From: an uncultured bacterium
Lineage (GTDB): Bacteria > Patescibacteria > JAEDAM01 > Absconditabacterales > Absconditicoccaceae
Assembly: GCA_903904545.1 (NCBI GenBank)
Contig: CAIVDB010000054.1
Span: 1 to 7,248, forward strand
Length of the DNA stretch: 7,248 bases
Direction of reading: 5' to 3'
The translations under genes were made by a program, and so were the position numbers. The notes under the pieces are model-generated. The model was not told the origin of the DNA. It ran no database searches and saw only the letters and a program-made list of their open reading frames with translations. Shown here piece after piece: positions 1-7,248 of the stretch (position 1 is its first letter; every line of letters starts with the position of its first letter).

Positions 1-216
1 AAATATATAACCTTTAAAAACTATTCTAAAAAACATATTCTGCAATGATGATTGTTTCTATGATTCCAACTTATTGGACAGGGGATTTATATGGTGTTCT
101 TGTGGATTTGAGTGGACCATCTTCATCTCTATTATATGTATGTTGCTATTTTTGCTAAATGAATAGCATTTATCTGGAATTATATCTCTAACCATTATTT
201 TAATTTTAAGAAATAG
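1..216 (+). CDS. GtrA-like membrane protein, C-terminal part (5' end outside window)
   Basis: Seventy-one C-terminal residues are visible in frame 1, ending at TAG 214-216; the start lies to the left of the window. Read with UGA as glycine there are five in-frame UGAs (46, 49, 61, 109, 160). Two hydrophobic stretches are visible, about residues 18-37 and 44-63, separated by a short polar turn (VDHLH). The end AKGIAFIWNYISNHYFNFKK matches the closing helix and basic tail usual for the GtrA-like family (small four-helix membrane proteins; typical endings are of the type 'F..NR.WVF'). GtrA proteins are thought to help flip undecaprenyl-phosphate-linked sugars across the membrane. The next gene, a GT2 enzyme, starts only two bases later, which is the common gtrA-gtrB arrangement. 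The assignment rests on hydrophobicity, the C-terminal pattern and this neighbour, so another small polytopic membrane protein remains possible. Confidence 0.68.
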
Positions 217-218
217 GA

Positions 219-950
219 ATGAAGGTACTCTCTGTAATAATCCCTGTATATAATGAGGAAAATACCCTTAGACAGTTGGTTGAGAAAGTTGTCTCTGTCG
301 ATTTAACCCTTGTCTGATACAAGAAACAACTTGTCTTGGTAAATGATGGGAGTAAGGATAATTCTGAGAAAATTATTTACGATCTTATTTCTCAGTATTC
401 GGCATCTTGTGAGATTAAATATATCAAAAATAAGCAGAACTCTGGTAAGTGATTTTCTTTAAAAGAATGATTTAGATATGCAAATGGAGATGTAATGATC
501 GTTCAGGATGCTGATCTTGAATATTTCCCTGAGAAAGATTATGTCCCCATGATTAAGATGTTTGAGCAAAGTAAGTGTGATTTTGTTTATTGATCAAGAA
601 CCTTAGGTGTTAAACAATTTGGGAATGAATATTCTTCTAAATCCTTTATGCTTTGAGGTCTTGTAGTATCTTGGCTTACTAGTGTCCTCTCATTTATTAA
701 GGTTACCGATGAACCTACCTGTTATAAAATGTTTACAAAAAAACTTAAGCCTTATCTTTTATTGCCTCAAGAAAATTGATTTGAATGGGAGCCAGCAATA
801 ACTATGCTTTTGTTGAGGAAAAGATTTACCTACAAAGAAATTCCTATCCATTATCATGCAAGACATTTTGATGAAGGAAAAAAAATTAATTGGAAAGATG
901 GATTGAAAGCCCTATGGACCTTAGTAAAATGGAGATTTAAACGTGTATAA
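219..950 (+). CDS. Family 2 glycosyltransferase, dolichol-phosphate mannose synthase / GtrB type
   Basis: A 243-residue GT-A fold glycosyltransferase. It probably moves a sugar from a nucleotide donor to a polyprenyl-phosphate on the cytoplasmic face. Motifs in order: SVIIPVYNEENT (5-16), the donor-binding VNDGSKD (41-47), SGKGFSLKEGF (75-85) followed by ANGD, the metal-binding QDADLEY (96-102, DAD at 97-99), YGSR near 124-127 and the acceptor-side QENGFEWEP near 184-192. Six UGA codons are in frame (residues 33, 78, 84, 125, 146, 187). Residues 78, 84 and 125 fall on glycines the family conserves, which argues for Gly rather than Trp. No C-terminal membrane helices follow the catalytic domain, unlike classical GtrB; the basic C-terminus (KALWTLVKWRFKRV) could touch the membrane. 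The start at 219 sits two bases after the preceding gene; AGGA at 215-218 abuts the ATG, too close for a normal ribosome site. The sugar is unknown. Confidence 0.9.
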
Positions 951-976
951 TATTTATTTTGTTTATCATGTTAGCG

Positions 977-1957
977 ATGTCTTATATTATTACCTGATGA
1001 GCTGGTTTTATTGGTAGTGTCTTAGTTGGATATCTTAATGCACAGGGGATTGATAATATTATTATAGTTGATCATCTTGCTGTTAGTGAGAAATGGAAGA
1101 ATTTGGTAGGTAAGAAATACAGGGATTATTTTGATAGATATGATTTTCTGGATAAGGTCGAGCAGGATGGTTATATTACTTCAGACGATGTTGTAATCCA
1201 TTTGTGAGCTTGTAGTGCTACAACGGAATTGGATACACAATATCTTATGAAAAATAATGCAAAATATAGTAGGACTCTTTATGAACAATGTTCTTTTGTG
1301 GGCGCTAGATTTATCTATGCCTCCTCAGCGGCTACCTATGGTGATGGAGCTCAATGATATTCAGATACTAAATTTGATCTTATTCCATTGAATATGTATG
1401 GATATACTAAATATCTTTCTGATCAGTGGATTCTCAATTGAACGAATAACTTTTCATCGTGTTCATCCCAGATAGTTGGTCTTAAGTTTTTTAATGTCTA
1501 TTGACCGAATGAATACCATAAAGGGAGTATGTCATCTGTGATTTATCATGGATTTAATCAAATACAGAGTGAAGGCAAAATAGAGCTCTTTAAGTCCTAT
1601 AAAGAGTGAGTTACGGATGGTGAGCAAAAGAGGGATTTTGTTTATGTAAAAGATGTTGTAAAAGTTATTTCTTTCTTTATCGATCATCCGGAGAAGAATT
1701 GAATATTTAACCTTTGAACTGGTGAAGCAAGAAGTTTTAATGATTTAGCAAAGGCAACATTCGCTGCTTTAGGCCTTGAACCAAAAATCTTCTATAAGGA
1801 GATGCCAGAGTCGTTGCAGGTAAAATATCAATATTTTACTCAAGCAGAGATGATGAAGCTTCGTAATATAGGCTATAAAGAAGACTTTTTCTCCCTTGAG
1901 GCATGAATAAAGGATTATGTTCAAAATTATCTTAATAAGGAATGTGCTATATTCTAA
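977..1957 (+). CDS. hldD: ADP-L-glycero-D-manno-heptose 6-epimerase
   Basis: A 326-residue extended short-chain dehydrogenase that converts ADP-D-glycero- to ADP-L-glycero-beta-D-manno-heptose, the last step of activated heptose synthesis. Visible: dinucleotide loop TGGAGFIGS (6-14), VDHL after the second strand (31-34), GACSATTE (77-84), ASSAATYG with the catalytic Ser region (115-122), YGYTK as the YxxxK pair (Tyr141, Lys145), [16 protein letters not shown] (173-188) with Lys182 matching the second catalytic lysine of the E. coli enzyme, [11 protein letters not shown] and FNLGTGEARSF. These match HldD rather than generic UDP-sugar epimerases, and the length is usual for HldD. Ten UGA codons are in frame; two in tandem (995-1000) encode both leading glycines of the dinucleotide loop. 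An in-frame ATG at 968 would add MLA; 977 is preferred because it puts the Rossmann strand at the N-terminus as in known HldD. No Shine-Dalgarno site precedes either start. Confidence 0.95.
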
Positions 1958-2034
1958 TTGGTTTATTATTTGATAATATTATGGGATTGATTATCGTTCT
2001 TGTGGTTTAAAAATTTAATTTCTAATTGAGTGTT
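1958..2034. other. Longest intergenic gap, between hldD and hldA
   Basis: Seventy-seven bases without a gene, the largest gap in the window. It is very AT-rich. It contains a weak all-A/T inverted repeat (TATTAT 1964-1969, ATAATA 1973-1978, three-base loop) without a clear T-run after it, so it is not a convincing terminator. No promoter with two good boxes at proper spacing was found. If the heptose genes hldA-gmhA-hldC have their own promoter, this is where it would lie, but the sequence does not show it. Confidence 0.3.
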
Positions 2035-2955
2035 ATGTCGAGGATAGTTGTAATAGGTGATTTGATGCTTGATAAATATTCATATGGGTTAGTCAAAAGA
2101 CTTAATCCTGAGTGACCCACACCGTTACTTAATATTAATCGTGAAGAGTATAAACTTTGATGAGCTGCTAATGTTGCTTCTAATATCGCTAGTCTTAATG
2201 GATTTGTTGATCTGATCTGAGTTTTGTGAGAAGACGATTATGGTGAAAAATTTCTATCATTATGCCAAGAAGAGCATATCCAACTTACTCACATTGTAAC
2301 TGGAGTCTCGACAATTACAAAGCAGAGGTTCGTAGAGACTACTTATCAACATCAGCTTTTGAGAGTAGATTATGAGGAAAAGTATCTTATGTCTCAGTCT
2401 CATAGTGATATGGTTATATCAGCACTTCAAGAGATTTCTCCTGAGTACATAGTTTTCTCGGATTATAATAAATGAATTATTGATAAATATCTTGTGGATT
2501 GAATTAAATCTTATGCGCAGAAAAATAATGTAAAAATTTTTGTCGATACAAAACCAGATAACCTTAAATATTTTGAGAATGTTTATTTGATTAAGCCCAA
2601 TCTTAAGGAATTTCGTCAAATGATAGGTAATGAAGAACTACCAGATTCAGACGAGGCATTACAAGAACAGGGAATATTGTTTGTGAATCAATATAAGACT
2701 AATCTTGTTATTACAAGATGAAGTAAGTGAGCTGTTTTGATTACTCAAGAAGGAGAATTCTACTCTCTTCCAACACAAGCAAAACAGGTTTTTGATGTGA
2801 CGGGTGCTTGAGATACTTTTTTGGCTGCAATTGTTTGCTCTCTTGCCCTTGGTTCTACACTTGTTGCTGCTGTAGAACTTGGTAATAAAGCAAGCTGAAT
2901 TGTTGTTGGAAAACAAGGTACCGTCTCTATCACTTCTCAAGAATTGGGTCTTTAA
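2035..2955 (+). CDS. hldA: D-glycero-beta-D-manno-heptose 7-phosphate kinase (HldE kinase half as a separate protein)
   Basis: A 306-residue PfkB-family sugar kinase that phosphorylates heptose 7-phosphate to the 1,7-bisphosphate with ATP. Motifs follow the N-terminal half of E. coli HldE in order: VIGDLMLDKYSYG (6-18), GGAANVASNIASL (42-54), LRVD near 105-108, FSDYNKG around 141-147, VDTKPDN, IKPNLKEF, VITRGSKGA, LPTQAKQVFDVTGAGDTF with the catalytic Asp at 260, and NKASGIVVGKQGT at the end. Eleven UGA codons are in frame; UGA supplies both glycines of GGAAN (2158-2163) and the glycine before the catalytic Asp (2809-2811). The nucleotidyltransferase half of HldE is missing from this protein and sits two genes downstream as hldC. 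An in-frame TAA at 2023-2025 limits the start; ATG 2035 is the first candidate, with only a poor TTGAG upstream. The PfkB fold marks the ADP-heptose route; the GDP-heptose route uses a GHMP-type kinase (HddA). Confidence 0.94.
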
Positions 2956-2972
2956 TCCATAAAACTTATTCC

Positions 2973-3530
2973 ATGGACTTACAAAAGTATTTTTATGAAT
3001 CGGCAAGTGTTAAACAAAAATTCATTGATGCGCAACAAGAGCTTTTTGAAGATGTTATAGAGGTGTTCCTTGATTGTTTTTCTTCATGATCTAAGGTTTT
3101 GATAGCTTGAAATGGATGAAGTGCTGCTGATGCACAACATCGAGCTGCAGAATTTATGGGGAGATATAAACTTGAAAGGCAGCCACTTCCTGCTGTGGCA
3201 TTGACCACTGATACTTCAAATCTTACTGCTGTAGCAAATGATTATAGTTTTGATGATATCTTTGCTAGACAAGTTGCATGATTGGGAAATGCAGGAGATG
3301 TTTTTGTTGGTATTTCTACTAGTGGCAATTCTATAAATATTATCAATGCTATAGAGGTTTGTAAAACTAAGTGAATTAAAGTGATTGCTCTTCTTGGTAA
3401 GTGAGGTGGAAAAATAAAGGATCTTGCAGATATTTCTCTTGTTGTCCCATCAGATAATACTCCGAGAATACAAGAGTGTCATCAGACAATCTATCATACT
3501 ATTTGTGAGGAAGTAGAAAATAATATCTAA
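2973..3530 (+). CDS. gmhA: Sedoheptulose 7-phosphate isomerase
   Basis: A 185-residue SIS-domain enzyme that turns sedoheptulose 7-phosphate into D-glycero-D-manno-heptose 7-phosphate, the first committed step of the heptose pathway. Motifs: GNGGSAADAQH (46-56) and AAEFMGRY (58-65), [16 protein letters not shown] (76-91), [13 protein letters not shown] (108-120) forming the phosphate loop, and [13 protein letters not shown] (163-175). Residues matching the zinc/catalytic set of E. coli GmhA are present: His56, Glu60, Gln167 and His175. The Asp before RIQ in E. coli is Pro164 here, which I believe also occurs in other GmhA proteins. Six UGA codons are in frame (3087, 3108, 3117, 3279, 3372, 3402); those at 3108 and 3117 encode glycines of the NGGSA loop. 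The gene starts 17 bases after hldA and ends 24 bases before hldC. No ribosome binding site is evident. Confidence 0.95.
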
Positions 3531-3554
3531 TTCTTTTAAACTTTTTTTAATGTC

Positions 3555-4025
3555 ATGATTTTACAAGAACTCTCTTTGTTGAGAGATATTTCTATAGCTG
3601 CAAAACAACAGTGACTTAAAATATGATTTACTAATGGTTGTTTTGATATTCTTCATCCGGGGCATGTTTATAATTTAAAAGAGGCGAAGAAGTATTGTGA
3701 TATTTTGATTGTTGCTATAAATAGCGATATCTCTTCTTATTGGAAAACCAAACCATGAAGACCTATTCACGATCAGCAACATAGAGCTATGCTCTTGGAT
3801 AGTATGAAATATGTAAACTATGTTACTTTTTTTGATCATGAGACGCCTATTCTTCTTATATCAGAGATTTTGCCTGATGTCCTGATTAAATGAGGAGACT
3901 ATACTCCAGATACGGTCGTTTGATATCAAGAAGTTGTTGAAAATGGGGGCAAAGTCATTATTGTTCCTATTGTTGAGTGATACTCGACCACCAATAGTGT
4001 GAAGAAAATTTTATGAATTAGTTAG
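3555..4025 (+). CDS. hldC: D-glycero-beta-D-manno-heptose 1-phosphate adenylyltransferase (HldE C-terminal half as a separate protein)
   Basis: A 156-residue cytidylyltransferase-like enzyme that joins AMP from ATP to heptose 1-phosphate, giving ADP-D-glycero-beta-D-manno-heptose. [14 protein letters not shown] (25-38) carries the HxGH nucleotide-binding signature (His34-His37), followed by [12 protein letters not shown] (68-71), [13 protein letters not shown] (111-123) and the closing VEGYSTTN (140-147). The last two are typical of the RfaE2/HldC group and separate it from CTP-using relatives. Seven UGA codons are in frame (3612, 3624, 3756, 3891, 3921, 3978, 4014). The usual basic segment before RPI (KRLKG in E. 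coli HldE) reads SYWKTKPG here, so part of the ATP-side loop differs. ATG 3555 is chosen; the ATG at 3550 is in another frame. The stop TAG ends six bases before the heptosyltransferase start, suggesting coupled translation. Confidence 0.94.
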
Positions 4026-4031
4026 TTATGT

Positions 4032-5156
4032 ATGTGGATAAGATTATTTAGAATGCTGGATACTTATATTGTTGGGTTTTTTGTTTTGCTTTTATTCCCA
4101 CTTAAATACCTTTCTCCTGGGCATAGAAATAAATTACAAAATCCCAAGAAGATATTAGTAATCAGACTTTGGGCCATGGGGAGTAGTATCCTTTCCTTCC
4201 CTATGATCAAGCAACTGGAGGATTATTATGGCGATAGCGTACAGTATGATTTATTAGCAACTTCTAGAAACATAGGGGTATTCAAGAATCAGGGATATTT
4301 TGATCATGCTTACAACCTTTTCTCTTGTGCATGACTCTTGTATGTATTGTCTTCTTTCAGAAGATATGACATCGTGATTGATGTGGAGGAATATTTTAAG
4401 GTATCTACTTTCTTGGCACTTTGGCTAGGTAAGAAGACGATATGATTTGGTAATTTATGGAATAGAAGAGTCGGGTATACAAACCCTGTCATATATAATG
4501 ATCATCAACATACGATTCTCACTTTTTTAGATCTACTGAAACCTTTAGGTATTAAAGTGTACACTCCAGGAGCAATGGAATCATTAATTTATAAAGAAAA
4601 AGATACAACGAAAGTAAAAGATTTTCTAGAAAAAATTTCTACGTATGGTATAGTTTGTATACATACATGAGGTGCAGAGACCGCTAAAGAAAGAGCGCGA
4701 CCAGCTTATAAATGGGTTTCTCTTATTCAAAACCTCCTTATAAAGTATAAAAATATCGTTATTGTCCTTTCTGGCACTTATTTTGAACAAGAGATAGTAC
4801 AAGAGATTTTAGATAAGCTGACTAACGATGAAAAACATTATGTAATTAATATCTGTGGAATGTTTAATCTATTTGAATTTTCCTGTTTATTGGAGAAATG
4901 TGCTTTGATGGTTTCTAATGATACTGGTCCCATGCATTTGGCTGCTGCTATGTGAACCAAAACCATAGGTCTCTTTGGTCCAGAACTGCCTAGGAAATTT
5001 GGTCCATGGCCATTAGATAAAAATATATGACTTTATAAGTGAAAGTGAGAGGCATTTATCAAAGTACACTTAGCTCAGTGGAAAAAAGATAAAGAGTATA
5101 CTATAGATAAAATATCTGTAGATGATGTTTTGAAAGAGATAAACCTATTGAAATAG
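4032..5156 (+). CDS. GT9 family heptosyltransferase-like glycosyltransferase (WaaC/WaaF type)
   Basis: A 374-residue GT-B enzyme of family GT9, which transfers heptose from ADP-L-glycero-beta-D-manno-heptose to a glycan acceptor. Near the N-terminus is a hydrophobic segment (about 12-27, VGFFVLLLFPL) that may anchor it to the membrane, then the first Rossmann strand KILVIRLWAMGSSILSFP (40-57). IHTGGAETAKERARP around residues 211-225 and SNDTGPMHLAAAMGTKTIGL (295-314) with FGP after it are the C-domain donor-site signatures of GT9. Seven UGA codons are in frame (4332, 4443, 4668, 4953, 5028, 5040, 5046). It follows hldC by six bases and closes the heptose block, so it is the natural user of the ADP-heptose made by its neighbours. 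GT9 also includes ADP-glucose and GlcNAc transferases, so the heptose donor is inferred from context. Nothing here identifies the acceptor. Confidence 0.9.
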
Positions 5157-5207
5157 TTACTTTAAACCTTATATCAGTTACGTTTTTATGACTCTAACCT
5201 TCTTTGC

Positions 5208-6146
5208 ATGAAAAGTACTCCTATGATAAGTATCTGTATCCCTACGTATAATAGATATAAAACTCTTAAAGAAGGGATAGAGAGTATTGTAGCTCAATTT
5301 GATGGTGAGATAGAAAAGAAAGTCGAAATCATTATTGCTGATGATGCAAGTCCAGATCTTACTATAGAGCCTATGGTTAGGGCGTTTATGGAAAAATATG
5401 ACAATATACGTTATCATAGATATCCTAAGAATATGCGATTGTCTAGTAATCTCGTGCATGTTACTACCTATGCTCATTGAGAATATCTTTGGCTTATGGC
5501 TGATGATGATTGTATGACTAATTTTGCTCTAAAGTATACTCTTGATATATTGGAGAAAACCAACTGTGATCTTATGATATGTAATGGTGTTTTCTGACCT
5601 GATATGAAGGTACATATTGATAAGAAAGAAAATGTGTTTAGAACGTTGCATTGAATGCCTGATCTTGTGGATTATCTTTATGATCATAGAAGAACATACC
5701 AAGATCTTGTTGTTTTCTTTCAATTCTATTCTATATTGGTAGTTAGAAATTCATATTTTAAGCAGTCATTGGCTATGTATGATAGAGATTTTATCTATGA
5801 CAACATTTTCCCACAAGATATAATAATTTATAGTAATATAGAAAATAGAAAGATAATTATCCCCGATAATATCTTTGTCTTATGAAGGACATTAAATGAA
5901 TCTTATAAGGCCTCTATGAAATTTGTAACTGATTTTGAGAAGGCTATGGATATGATAGGGGAGGCTAATGCTTTGCAATGATCAAAGAAGTGGAGAAGTC
6001 TTCAGAAACTCGTCTGTTCCTGATGGAGAAGGACTATAGTTCTTGGAAGGATGCTTAGACGATTACATATAGACTACAAAAAGAATACCTTATTCAGAAA
6101 ATTATATTTTTTCTATAAGAAACATATTCAGAATAGAATGGCGTAG
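5208..6146 (+). CDS. Family 2 glycosyltransferase with a basic C-terminal tail
   Basis: A 312-residue GT-A glycosyltransferase. The N-terminus carries MISICIPTYNRYKTL (6-20), then VEIIIADDASPD (39-50) with the nucleotide-contacting Asp pair, and YLWLMADDD (93-101) whose DDD is the metal-binding DxD equivalent. The rest (about 110-255) is specific to this protein and gives no acceptor clue. There are no membrane helices, but residues 260-312 are strongly cationic (16 Lys/Arg against one Asp), which may hold the enzyme at the membrane. Six UGA codons are in frame (5478, 5595, 5652, 5883, 5979, 6021); the first gives HGEYLWLMADDD, where a glycine before the DxD strand is usual. ATG 5208 is the first in-frame start after TAA 5163-5165, 51 bases after the GT9 gene. 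The ATG at 5188 opens only a 13-codon frame. It probably extends the same surface glycan; donor sugar unknown. Confidence 0.88.
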
Positions 6147-6151
6147 TATAA
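6147..6151. other. Strand-switch point between two convergent gene groups
   Basis: The + strand operon ends at TAG 6144-6146 and the - strand group ends at 6152, leaving five bases. The perfect palindrome TATAATTATA (6147-6156) spans the junction and overlaps the - strand stop codon. It is only A/T, so it is weak as a terminator. No GC-rich hairpin with a T-run is present on either strand, so transcripts from the two sides may overlap. Confidence 0.5.
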
Positions 6152-6883
6152 TTATATCTTATTTACTCAAATTTTATGGAGTATTTGTATCGCTGTTTCT
6201 ATTATTATTGATTTTTTTAGATCCCCTCATGCTCAGGGTACTCCTCTCATTTTAGGATATTGGGCTAGGGGATGAATTTTCCTAGATAGATTTTTTAGCC
6301 TTGTGAAGTAGACATGTTCTAAAAAATGAGTTTTGGTATCATCGACATCTTCTCCGGCTCCAACTAATACTGTATTGAAGAAGTTGACGGATGTTTTAAA
6401 TATCGCGGTATTCACTGCTTTGGTACCCAATTCAATTAATGATATGGGCATCATTTTTGAAAAGCAAATTTCCTTGTCTTGGGATCATTGGATTATTTGA
6501 TTAATATTTTCACACCAATATCTTCAGGTTATCTTTATGAAACTTCATGATCTCTTTATTAATCTAGAATGCTTTATTGCATATTCCATTATTTCACTTT
6601 CTCAGAATCATCTTCCTCTTTTTACAGATTTCTCATGATTGCCATTAAATTGTAGTATCTCTAATTCCTTTCAGAATATTCCTGCTACTCATGTTAGAGC
6701 AGATAAATCCTTTATTTTATATCAAGAATTTTCGCAAAATACGATCGAATCAAACTCCGAAAGACAGATATATTTTATTATATTCTGTATATATTGTTGG
6801 TACCTAATCATAGGATCTTTTACGTTGAGGAAGAGGATATCTTGATTCGGTTGTATTGTTCCTGTGAGTAGGGCAGTATTCAT
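6152..6883 (-). CDS. Unnamed polysaccharide-locus protein, possible glycosyltransferase
   Basis: A 243-residue soluble protein, visible only when eleven in-frame UGAs are read as glycine. The order of motifs resembles an unnamed family I recall from bacterial capsule and LPS gene clusters: ALLTGTIQPN (4-13), VKDPMIRYQQYI (21-32), SIVFCENSGY (46-55), QFNGN (78-82), KRGRGFGESEIMEYAIKHS (88-106), SFIKITGRY (114-122), a Thr/Ser-rich middle, EDVDDTKTHFLEHVYF (178-193) and a C-terminal GVPGAGGD (214-221). The alternation of beta strands with Asp/Asn-rich loops and the KITGR motif suggest a GT-A-like nucleotide-sugar fold, but I cannot assign an activity. ATG 6883 is the first start after an in-frame TAG (read on the - strand at 6910-6908), which is the stop of the upstream gene; the gap is 24 bases and pyrimidine-rich with no ribosome site. 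It converges on the GT2 gene with five bases between stops. Confidence 0.85.
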
Positions 6884-6907
6884 GGTAGGAGAGAGTGAGA
6901 TAAAAGT

Positions 6908-7248
6908 CTAATTTACAGTTAAATCCTTGATAATTCTAGTATAATAGTTTTTCATAATAAAATATTTCTCATATGTATCTCTTATTTCTTTCTGAATCTC
7001 TGTTAGATCTCATTTATTTTTTTCTATGAACTTATCAATGTAATGTCATATATTATGAATTTGTTTAAACGGTATTATAACAAATAGTTTATCATATGGT
7101 ATCTCATCCTGGAACGGTAGTTTTGCTCAAGTATCTATATATATAGGTATCTTTCATAGGCTCATAACCTCGTATAATCTAGATGAATAGTTCGCGAATC
7201 ATCTTATTATTAGTCCAAAGTCCGAATTATTTAAATTCTCAATATATT
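6908..7248 (-). CDS. Exostosin-like glycosyltransferase, C-terminal part (5' end outside window)
   Basis: The last 112 residues are visible, ending at TAG (6910-6908 on the - strand); the start lies beyond the right edge. Five UGA codons are in frame. The segment SDFGLIIRGFANYSSRLYEV, followed directly by MSLGKIPIYIDTGAKLPF (about 7124-7225), carries the pattern of the exostosin/GT47-like C-terminal domain. There an Arg-Gly, Asn-x-Ser-x-Arg-x-x-Glu series and a Gly-x-Ile-Pro-Ile strand form the nucleotide-sugar site, followed by a conserved Leu-Pro-Phe. The tail is charged and helical (TEIQKEIRDTYEKYF). Such enzymes add sugars in surface polysaccharides, and the next gene 24 bases downstream is also of the polysaccharide-locus type. 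Because only the C-terminus is visible, the exact family and donor sugar are uncertain. Confidence 0.78.

Follow-up and report, generated by a model that had tools for sequence, protein, structure and literature searches.

Which residues do UGA and CGA stand for in a gene cluster that the standard bacterial code breaks into pieces? The question is raised by contig CAIVDB010000054.1 (assembly GCA_903904545.1) of an uncultured Absconditicoccaceae bacterium, whose entire 7,248 nucleotides, referred to here as the window, were analysed. The window holds ten protein-coding frames, among them genes for the heptose enzymes HldD, HldA, GmhA and HldC and for glycosyltransferases of the GT2 and GT9 families (Table 1). 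Very likely, in our view, the window belongs to an Absconditabacteria (SR1) bacterium and forms a polysaccharide/heptose gene cluster in which UGA is read as glycine (Gly) and CGA as tryptophan (Trp), i.e., the NCBI translation table 25 with CGA = Trp added to it.

UGA as a glycine codon

A sequence-only reading of the window had proposed that the ten genes are intact only if UGA is a sense codon and had counted 74 in-frame UGAs; our numbers match exactly gene by gene (5, 6, 10, 11, 6, 7, 7, 6, 11 and 5 in window order). With UGA as sense, stop-to-stop frames of at least 100 codons covered 95.7% of the window versus 14% under table 11, where fragments are short and the longest listed open reading frame (ORF), with 115 amino acids (aa), lies antisense. 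Coverage with a sense UGA did not exceed 41.6% in 200 first-order Markov simulations, and freeing one of the other stops instead gave 22% (UAG) or 60% (UAA). The ten frames are terminated five times by UAA, five times by UAG and never by UGA. This confirmed that the frames opened by a sense UGA are real and lie far beyond chance. UGA makes up 74 of the 164 glycine codons of the ten genes, and 10 of the 28 in hldD (the other 18 being GGN), as the sequence-only reading had estimated for that gene; it would be an ordinary and frequent glycine codon in this locus.

The residue opposite each UGA was scored in alignments with 82 loci (L001-L082 of L001-L112, best match per locus), comprising two viral-contig loci and 80 genome loci, the latter being the best 80 of 337 hldD relatives. 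Among the 33 UGA columns to which five or more rows could be aligned, the commonest residue of the relatives was Gly in 28 and Trp in none. The mean Gly share was 0.74, which lies inside the 0.62-0.92 spanned by the four GGN codons. For the remaining 41 UGAs, this set offered less than five aligned rows, and the seven of GT9 were read instead against 35 homologs that are not Trp-rich. By Trp-rich we mean more than 3% Trp, a cut-off of our own choosing that is exceeded by 16 of 119 HldD, 85 of 120 GT9 and 48 of 120 GmhA homologs, which look as if they had been translated with UGA as Trp.

UGA had further been proposed to fall on the glycines of named motifs in HldD, HldA, GmhA, HldC and GT2, and the alignments largely bear this out, as mostly Gly was found opposite. 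In HldD, this was the case in all 82 rows at residue 6 and in 72 of 82 at residue 7 (Ala in 10), in HldA at residues 42, 43 and 259 (24/24, 23/24 and 24/24), in GmhA at residues 46 and 49 (13/13 each), in the first GT2 at residues 78 and 84 (2/2 each) and, with the lowest share, in HldC at residue 113 (11/16, Glu in five). Among the 35 GT9 homologs, Gly was the commonest letter opposite the UGAs of residues 138, 213, 308, 337 and 339.

Profiles built from relatives that are not rich in Trp gave the same answer, with Gly ranking first of 20 residues at UGA in all five (HldD, HldA, GmhA, HldC and GT9). They contained 92 rows for HldD (P0029-P0120, 92/92), 72 for GmhA (72 of the 89 in P0272-P0360, the Trp-rich ones being dropped), 22 for GT9 (P0219-P0240, 22/22) and, for HldA and HldC, the 24 and 15 matches without stops. 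The summed score was 1671.8 bits with UGA as Gly, 1598.0 as Ala and 1540.6 as Trp, i.e., margins of 73.8 and 131.2 bits, and Gly stayed first in the GmhA profile when the two rows named Gracilibacteria were removed (70 rows). Additionally, all nine proteins matched in Pfam scored better when UGA was taken as Gly instead of Trp.

Some positions weigh against this assignment. Gly was not the commonest residue at five of the 33 columns (HldD 154 and 210, HldA 27 and 156, HldC 68), HldA 27 being opposite Ala in 24 of 24 rows, nor at two of the seven GT9 positions (101 and 333), and GmhA 103 was opposite Ala in 50 of 72 rows that are not Trp-rich. Overall, the comparison with relatives strongly supports UGA as glycine in the locus, as the sequence-only reading had it.

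CGA as a probable tryptophan codon

The arginine box is used sparsely in the ten frames, with four CGA, five CGT, no CGG and no CGC, next to 66 AGR codons. The most telling CGA encodes residue 223 of GT9. Here Trp was found in 32 of the 35 homologs that are not Trp-rich, and the three rows with Arg (P0137, P0138 and P0184) all belong to the SR1 clade of the GT9 tree described below; the outgroup rows P0219-P0240 showed Trp in 22 of 22, and the 85 Trp-rich homologs had Trp (62) or Arg (23) and nothing else. In the printed alignments, the residue aligns with Trp in both matched solved structures (PDB 1psw and 3tov). Reading CGA as Trp raised the PF01075 score of GT9 from 98.6 to 107.5 bits (+8.9), and the GT9 profile as well as the summed GmhA and GT9 profiles ranked Trp first of 20 for CGA (in the latter, 702.1 versus 693.4 bits for Arg, a difference of 8.7 bits).

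The CGA at residue 57 of GmhA occupies a hydrophobic column. The 48 Trp-rich relatives carry Arg (24) or Trp (16) in 40 cases and Phe, Ile or Leu in the remainder, the 72 others mainly Phe (51), and Trp is present in the two rows named Gracilibacteria. With CGA as Trp, the score of GmhA rose from 99.6 to 100.7 bits for Pfam SIS_2 and from 213.5 to 215.4 bits for TIGR00441, and among the NCBIfam models listed at E 1e-12, five of five increased for GmhA as well as five of five for GT9. Both informative CGA codons thereby favour Trp over Arg, GT9 223 by a clear margin and GmhA 57 by a small one.

Several observations count against tryptophan. The informative CGA codons number just two out of four. 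At GmhA 57, the profile ranked Phe, Met and Ile above Trp (and Val too without the Gracilibacteria rows), Arg trailed Trp by only 0.9-1.1 bits (0.9 without these rows), and five printed PDB alignments show Phe or Ile. In the second GT2, CGA as Trp lowered the Pfam scores from 86.3 to 85.7 and from 21.0 to 19.7 bits, and residue 77 lies opposite Gly in five of five printed PDB alignments, which suits neither Trp nor Arg.

The GT9 tree, a quick tree of one gene with Trp masked and four relevant named rows, places the window in a nine-row group with an SR1 row. Of the rows that bear names, SR1 (60%) and Absconditabacterales (58%) come closest, and 73 rows make up the smallest clade that unites the window with those named SR1, Absconditabacterales and Absconditicoccaceae, the row named Gracilibacteria remaining outside. 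Among the GT9 relatives, P0121 shows 84% identity, and its longest contig measures 140,690 bases. The sequence-only reading had placed the source in Absconditabacteria or Gracilibacteria; on this single gene tree, a narrower placement in Absconditabacteria is supported.

Within this 73-row clade, i.e., the window and 72 of the 120 relatives, we counted changes between Arg and Trp. GT9 columns 47, 131, 223 and 228, which hold almost nothing but Trp or Arg, underwent 15, 17, 18 and 20 such changes, and the Arg columns 7, 45, 79, 145 and 221, which are fixed or almost so, never show Trp and had none. At the two Trp columns of HldD, Arg accounted for 11 of 32 letters in Trp-rich relatives versus 3 of 205 in the others. 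Not every column follows the pattern: the variable Trp columns 2, 143, 326 and 350 of GT9 had 0, 1, 3 and 8 changes, and the Arg columns 4 and 146 had two and three. Column 146 shows Trp in 38 rows, which may reflect UGA read as Trp in those protein records. A further point on the opposing side is that over all GT9 Trp columns Arg made up 80 of 581 letters in the Trp-rich rows and, even among the others, 15 of 214; this weaker contrast arises partly because the rows that are not Trp-rich include recoded ones, 13 of the 35 ranking above P0219 and containing members of the recoded group. Moreover, the CGR codons (CGA or CGG) of the relatives are deduced from protein letters alone.

At the four GT9 columns, Arg contributes 96 of 281 Arg and Trp letters in the 72 relatives without the window, so that about one third of the tryptophans at these conserved columns would be CGR-encoded. 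It is probable, at the level of protein sequences, that CGA and CGG are no relict in the SR1 lineage and act as a working Trp codon that exchanges freely with UGG. Because CGA falls on a conserved Trp of GT9 and the clade exchanges Arg and Trp at Trp columns and not at fixed Arg columns, CGA in the locus is most likely read as tryptophan. The label "table 25" given by the sequence-only reading accordingly holds for UGA = Gly and most likely fails for CGA = Arg, Trp scoring above Arg at GT9 223 and slightly at GmhA 57; the locus very probably works with table 25 plus CGA = Trp, and table 25 alone is incomplete.

Competing readings and known codes

Under plain table 25, UGA would be Gly, CGA would still be Arg, and the CGAs at Trp or hydrophobic columns would be substitutions in one organism. 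CGA is indeed rare, with four in frame, Arg gives the second GT2 a score higher by 0.6 bits, GmhA on its own separates Trp from Arg weakly, and in passages of Shulgina & Eddy 2021 (PMC8629427) CGG = Arg is reported for some Gracilibacteria. We nevertheless regard this explanation as improbable, as the outgroup is uniformly Trp at GT9 223, the clade changed between Arg and Trp 18 times at this column and left its fixed Arg columns free of Trp, and the window groups with SR1 and not with the named Gracilibacteria row. Far less credible still, to the point of being negligible, is UGA = Trp (table 4), even though the frames are equally open under that table and the hldD translation P0001 in the protein collection was made with it: the summed profiles put Trp in 17th place of 20, with the deficit to Gly given above, and Trp is the commonest residue at none of the 33 UGA columns. 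With the profiles, the UGA columns and the Pfam and NCBIfam scores all contradicting it, table 4 was rejected.

The contig could also belong to a phage or provirus of an Absconditabacterium using the code of its host. Code 25 is treated as the code of Absconditabacteria hosts, and code-25 phages of such hosts are reported, in parts of PMC10746230, the main text of which contains neither "CGA" nor "CGG". Homologs of hldD were found in 82 phage records, all below 60% identity, and at two viral-contig loci (53%). No DNA match was obtained among 50,697 phage records, however, the GT9, the second GT2 and the ninth frame (orf9) lack relatives in the viral contigs, and the matched families belong to sugar and polysaccharide metabolism, accompanied by one orphan protein. 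A phage origin, which thus has little support, appears very unlikely to us.

The assignment of UGA = Gly and CGA = Trp agrees with published work, and both changes are already known for Absconditabacteria. Passages of PMC8629427 give Gly for UGA and Trp for both CGA and CGG in this group, and the decoding of CGG and CGA as Trp in Absconditabacterales is likewise stated in part of PMC13092985. Compared with the code as described in those passages of PMC8629427, the window is alike in both reassignments, in its low GC content (31-34%), in arginine being mainly AGA and in the rarity of CGN, and we found no difference, the window having no in-frame CGG. With NCBI table 25 (SR1 and Gracilibacteria) it shares UGA = Gly, whereas that table keeps CGA = Arg, contrary to the evidence from the locus. 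UGA = Gly is also shared with BD1-5/SN-2, another organism from a related division, for which sections of PMC4032931 describe enrichment proteomics with 97 peptides found exclusively under the Gly translation versus three under Trp. In the Mycoplasma-type table 4, UGA is sense too, but the residue differs (Trp there, Gly here according to the profiles).

Going by the literature, UGA would be read by a tRNA-Gly with anticodon UCA, free of competition through the loss of release factor 2, UAA and UAG would be terminated by release factor 1, and CGA and CGG would be read by a Trp-charged tRNA with anticodon UCG (and CCG). CGG, to judge from the pattern of the clade, is probably Trp here too. The window contains no tRNA gene and no Rfam match at the gathering score. 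A tRNA-Gly(UCA) pattern was found in none of 379 genomes from the phylum to which a Parcubacteria genome belongs, a search without a positive control that says little, and no UGA-recoded genome was recognisable among them. In the same genomes, hldD matched in 309 (E 0.001), the matches listed being free of internal UGA, and GT9 in two (E 1e-25), neither with internal stops.

Gene content and consequences for annotation

The genes hldD, hldA, gmhA, hldC and a heptosyltransferase-like GT9 gene are clustered at 977-5156 and represent most steps of ADP-heptose synthesis. Profile searches with Pfam and NCBIfam gave no match to the phosphatase GmhB among the ten frames, and the literature searched held no paper combining "Absconditabacteria" and "heptose". 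Contigs of equal size, e.g., 97,582 bases in all three, recur among the match lists of hldD, GT9 and gmhA in relatives, which suggests that the three genes are linked on one contig there. The computations for hldD used 980-1957, its start being taken as the ATG at 977. The GT47-like fragment exceeds the PF03016 cut-off with Gly alone, and the 243-aa protein on the reverse strand stayed without a match, at the limits used, in searches of Pfam, NCBIfam, PHROGs and PDB sequences.

Table 1 Genes and CGA codons of the window, with scores for UGA read as Gly or Trp
Feature	Position	Strand	Details
GtrA-like membrane protein, 3' part	1..216	+	5 UGA; Pfam PF04138 33.5 bits (Gly), 31.1 (Trp)
GT2 glycosyltransferase (first)	219..950	+	6 UGA, two in GKGxxLxxGF; PF00535 100.7 bits (Gly), 90.4 (Trp)
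hldD, ADP-glyceromanno-heptose 6-epimerase	977..1957	+	10 UGA; TIGR02197 395.1 bits (Gly), 358.5 (Trp); cut-off 274.6
hldA-like heptose-7-phosphate kinase	2035..2955	+	11 UGA; TIGR02198 287.6 bits (Gly), 240.4 (Trp); both below cut-off 345
gmhA, sedoheptulose-7-phosphate isomerase	2973..3530	+	6 UGA, 1 CGA; TIGR00441 213.5 bits (Gly), 196.3 (Trp); cut-off 209.45
CGA codon, GmhA residue 57, most likely Trp	3141..3143	+	hydrophobic column
hldC-like heptose-1-phosphate adenylyltransferase	3555..4025	+	7 UGA; TIGR02199 165.9 bits (Gly), 150.0 (Trp); both below cut-off 181.5
GT9 glycosyltransferase, heptosyltransferase-like	4032..5156	+	7 UGA, 1 CGA; PF01075 98.6 bits (Gly), 94.3 (Trp)
CGA codon, GT9 residue 223, most likely Trp	4698..4700	+	conserved Trp of GT9 family
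GT2 glycosyltransferase (second)	5208..6146	+	6 UGA, 2 CGA; PF00535 86.3 bits (Gly), 80.9 (Trp)
CGA codon, second GT2 residue 77	5436..5438	+	opposite Gly in printed PDB alignments (5/5)
CGA codon, second GT2 residue 285	6060..6062	+	beyond Pfam match
Protein without known family, 243 aa	6152..6883	-	11 UGA
Exostosin/GT47-like protein, C-terminal part	6908..7246	-	5 UGA; PF03016 38.3 bits (Gly), 23.8 (Trp); cut-off 33.4

The entry P0001 is the product of the contig's own hldD, full-length but wrong, with Trp at all ten UGA positions. The expectation that standard-code annotation would miss or shred the locus was therefore right about the shredding, given the short table 11 ORFs, and wrong about hldD, which was not missed. 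Since the code changes are published, the value of our findings is practical. Collections can hold wrong proteins of the clade: P0001 exemplifies the translation of UGA as Trp, and even under table 25 CGA is given as Arg, so that UGA = Gly together with CGA = Trp is advisable for expressing, folding or searching the enzymes of the clade. Column 223 of GT9 offers a simple conserved-site test of the CGA change. Furthermore, if CGA and CGG do exchange freely with UGG throughout the SR1 lineage, the reassignment would be an old one that has long been settled, with NCBI table 25 mistranslating the whole clade at two codons.

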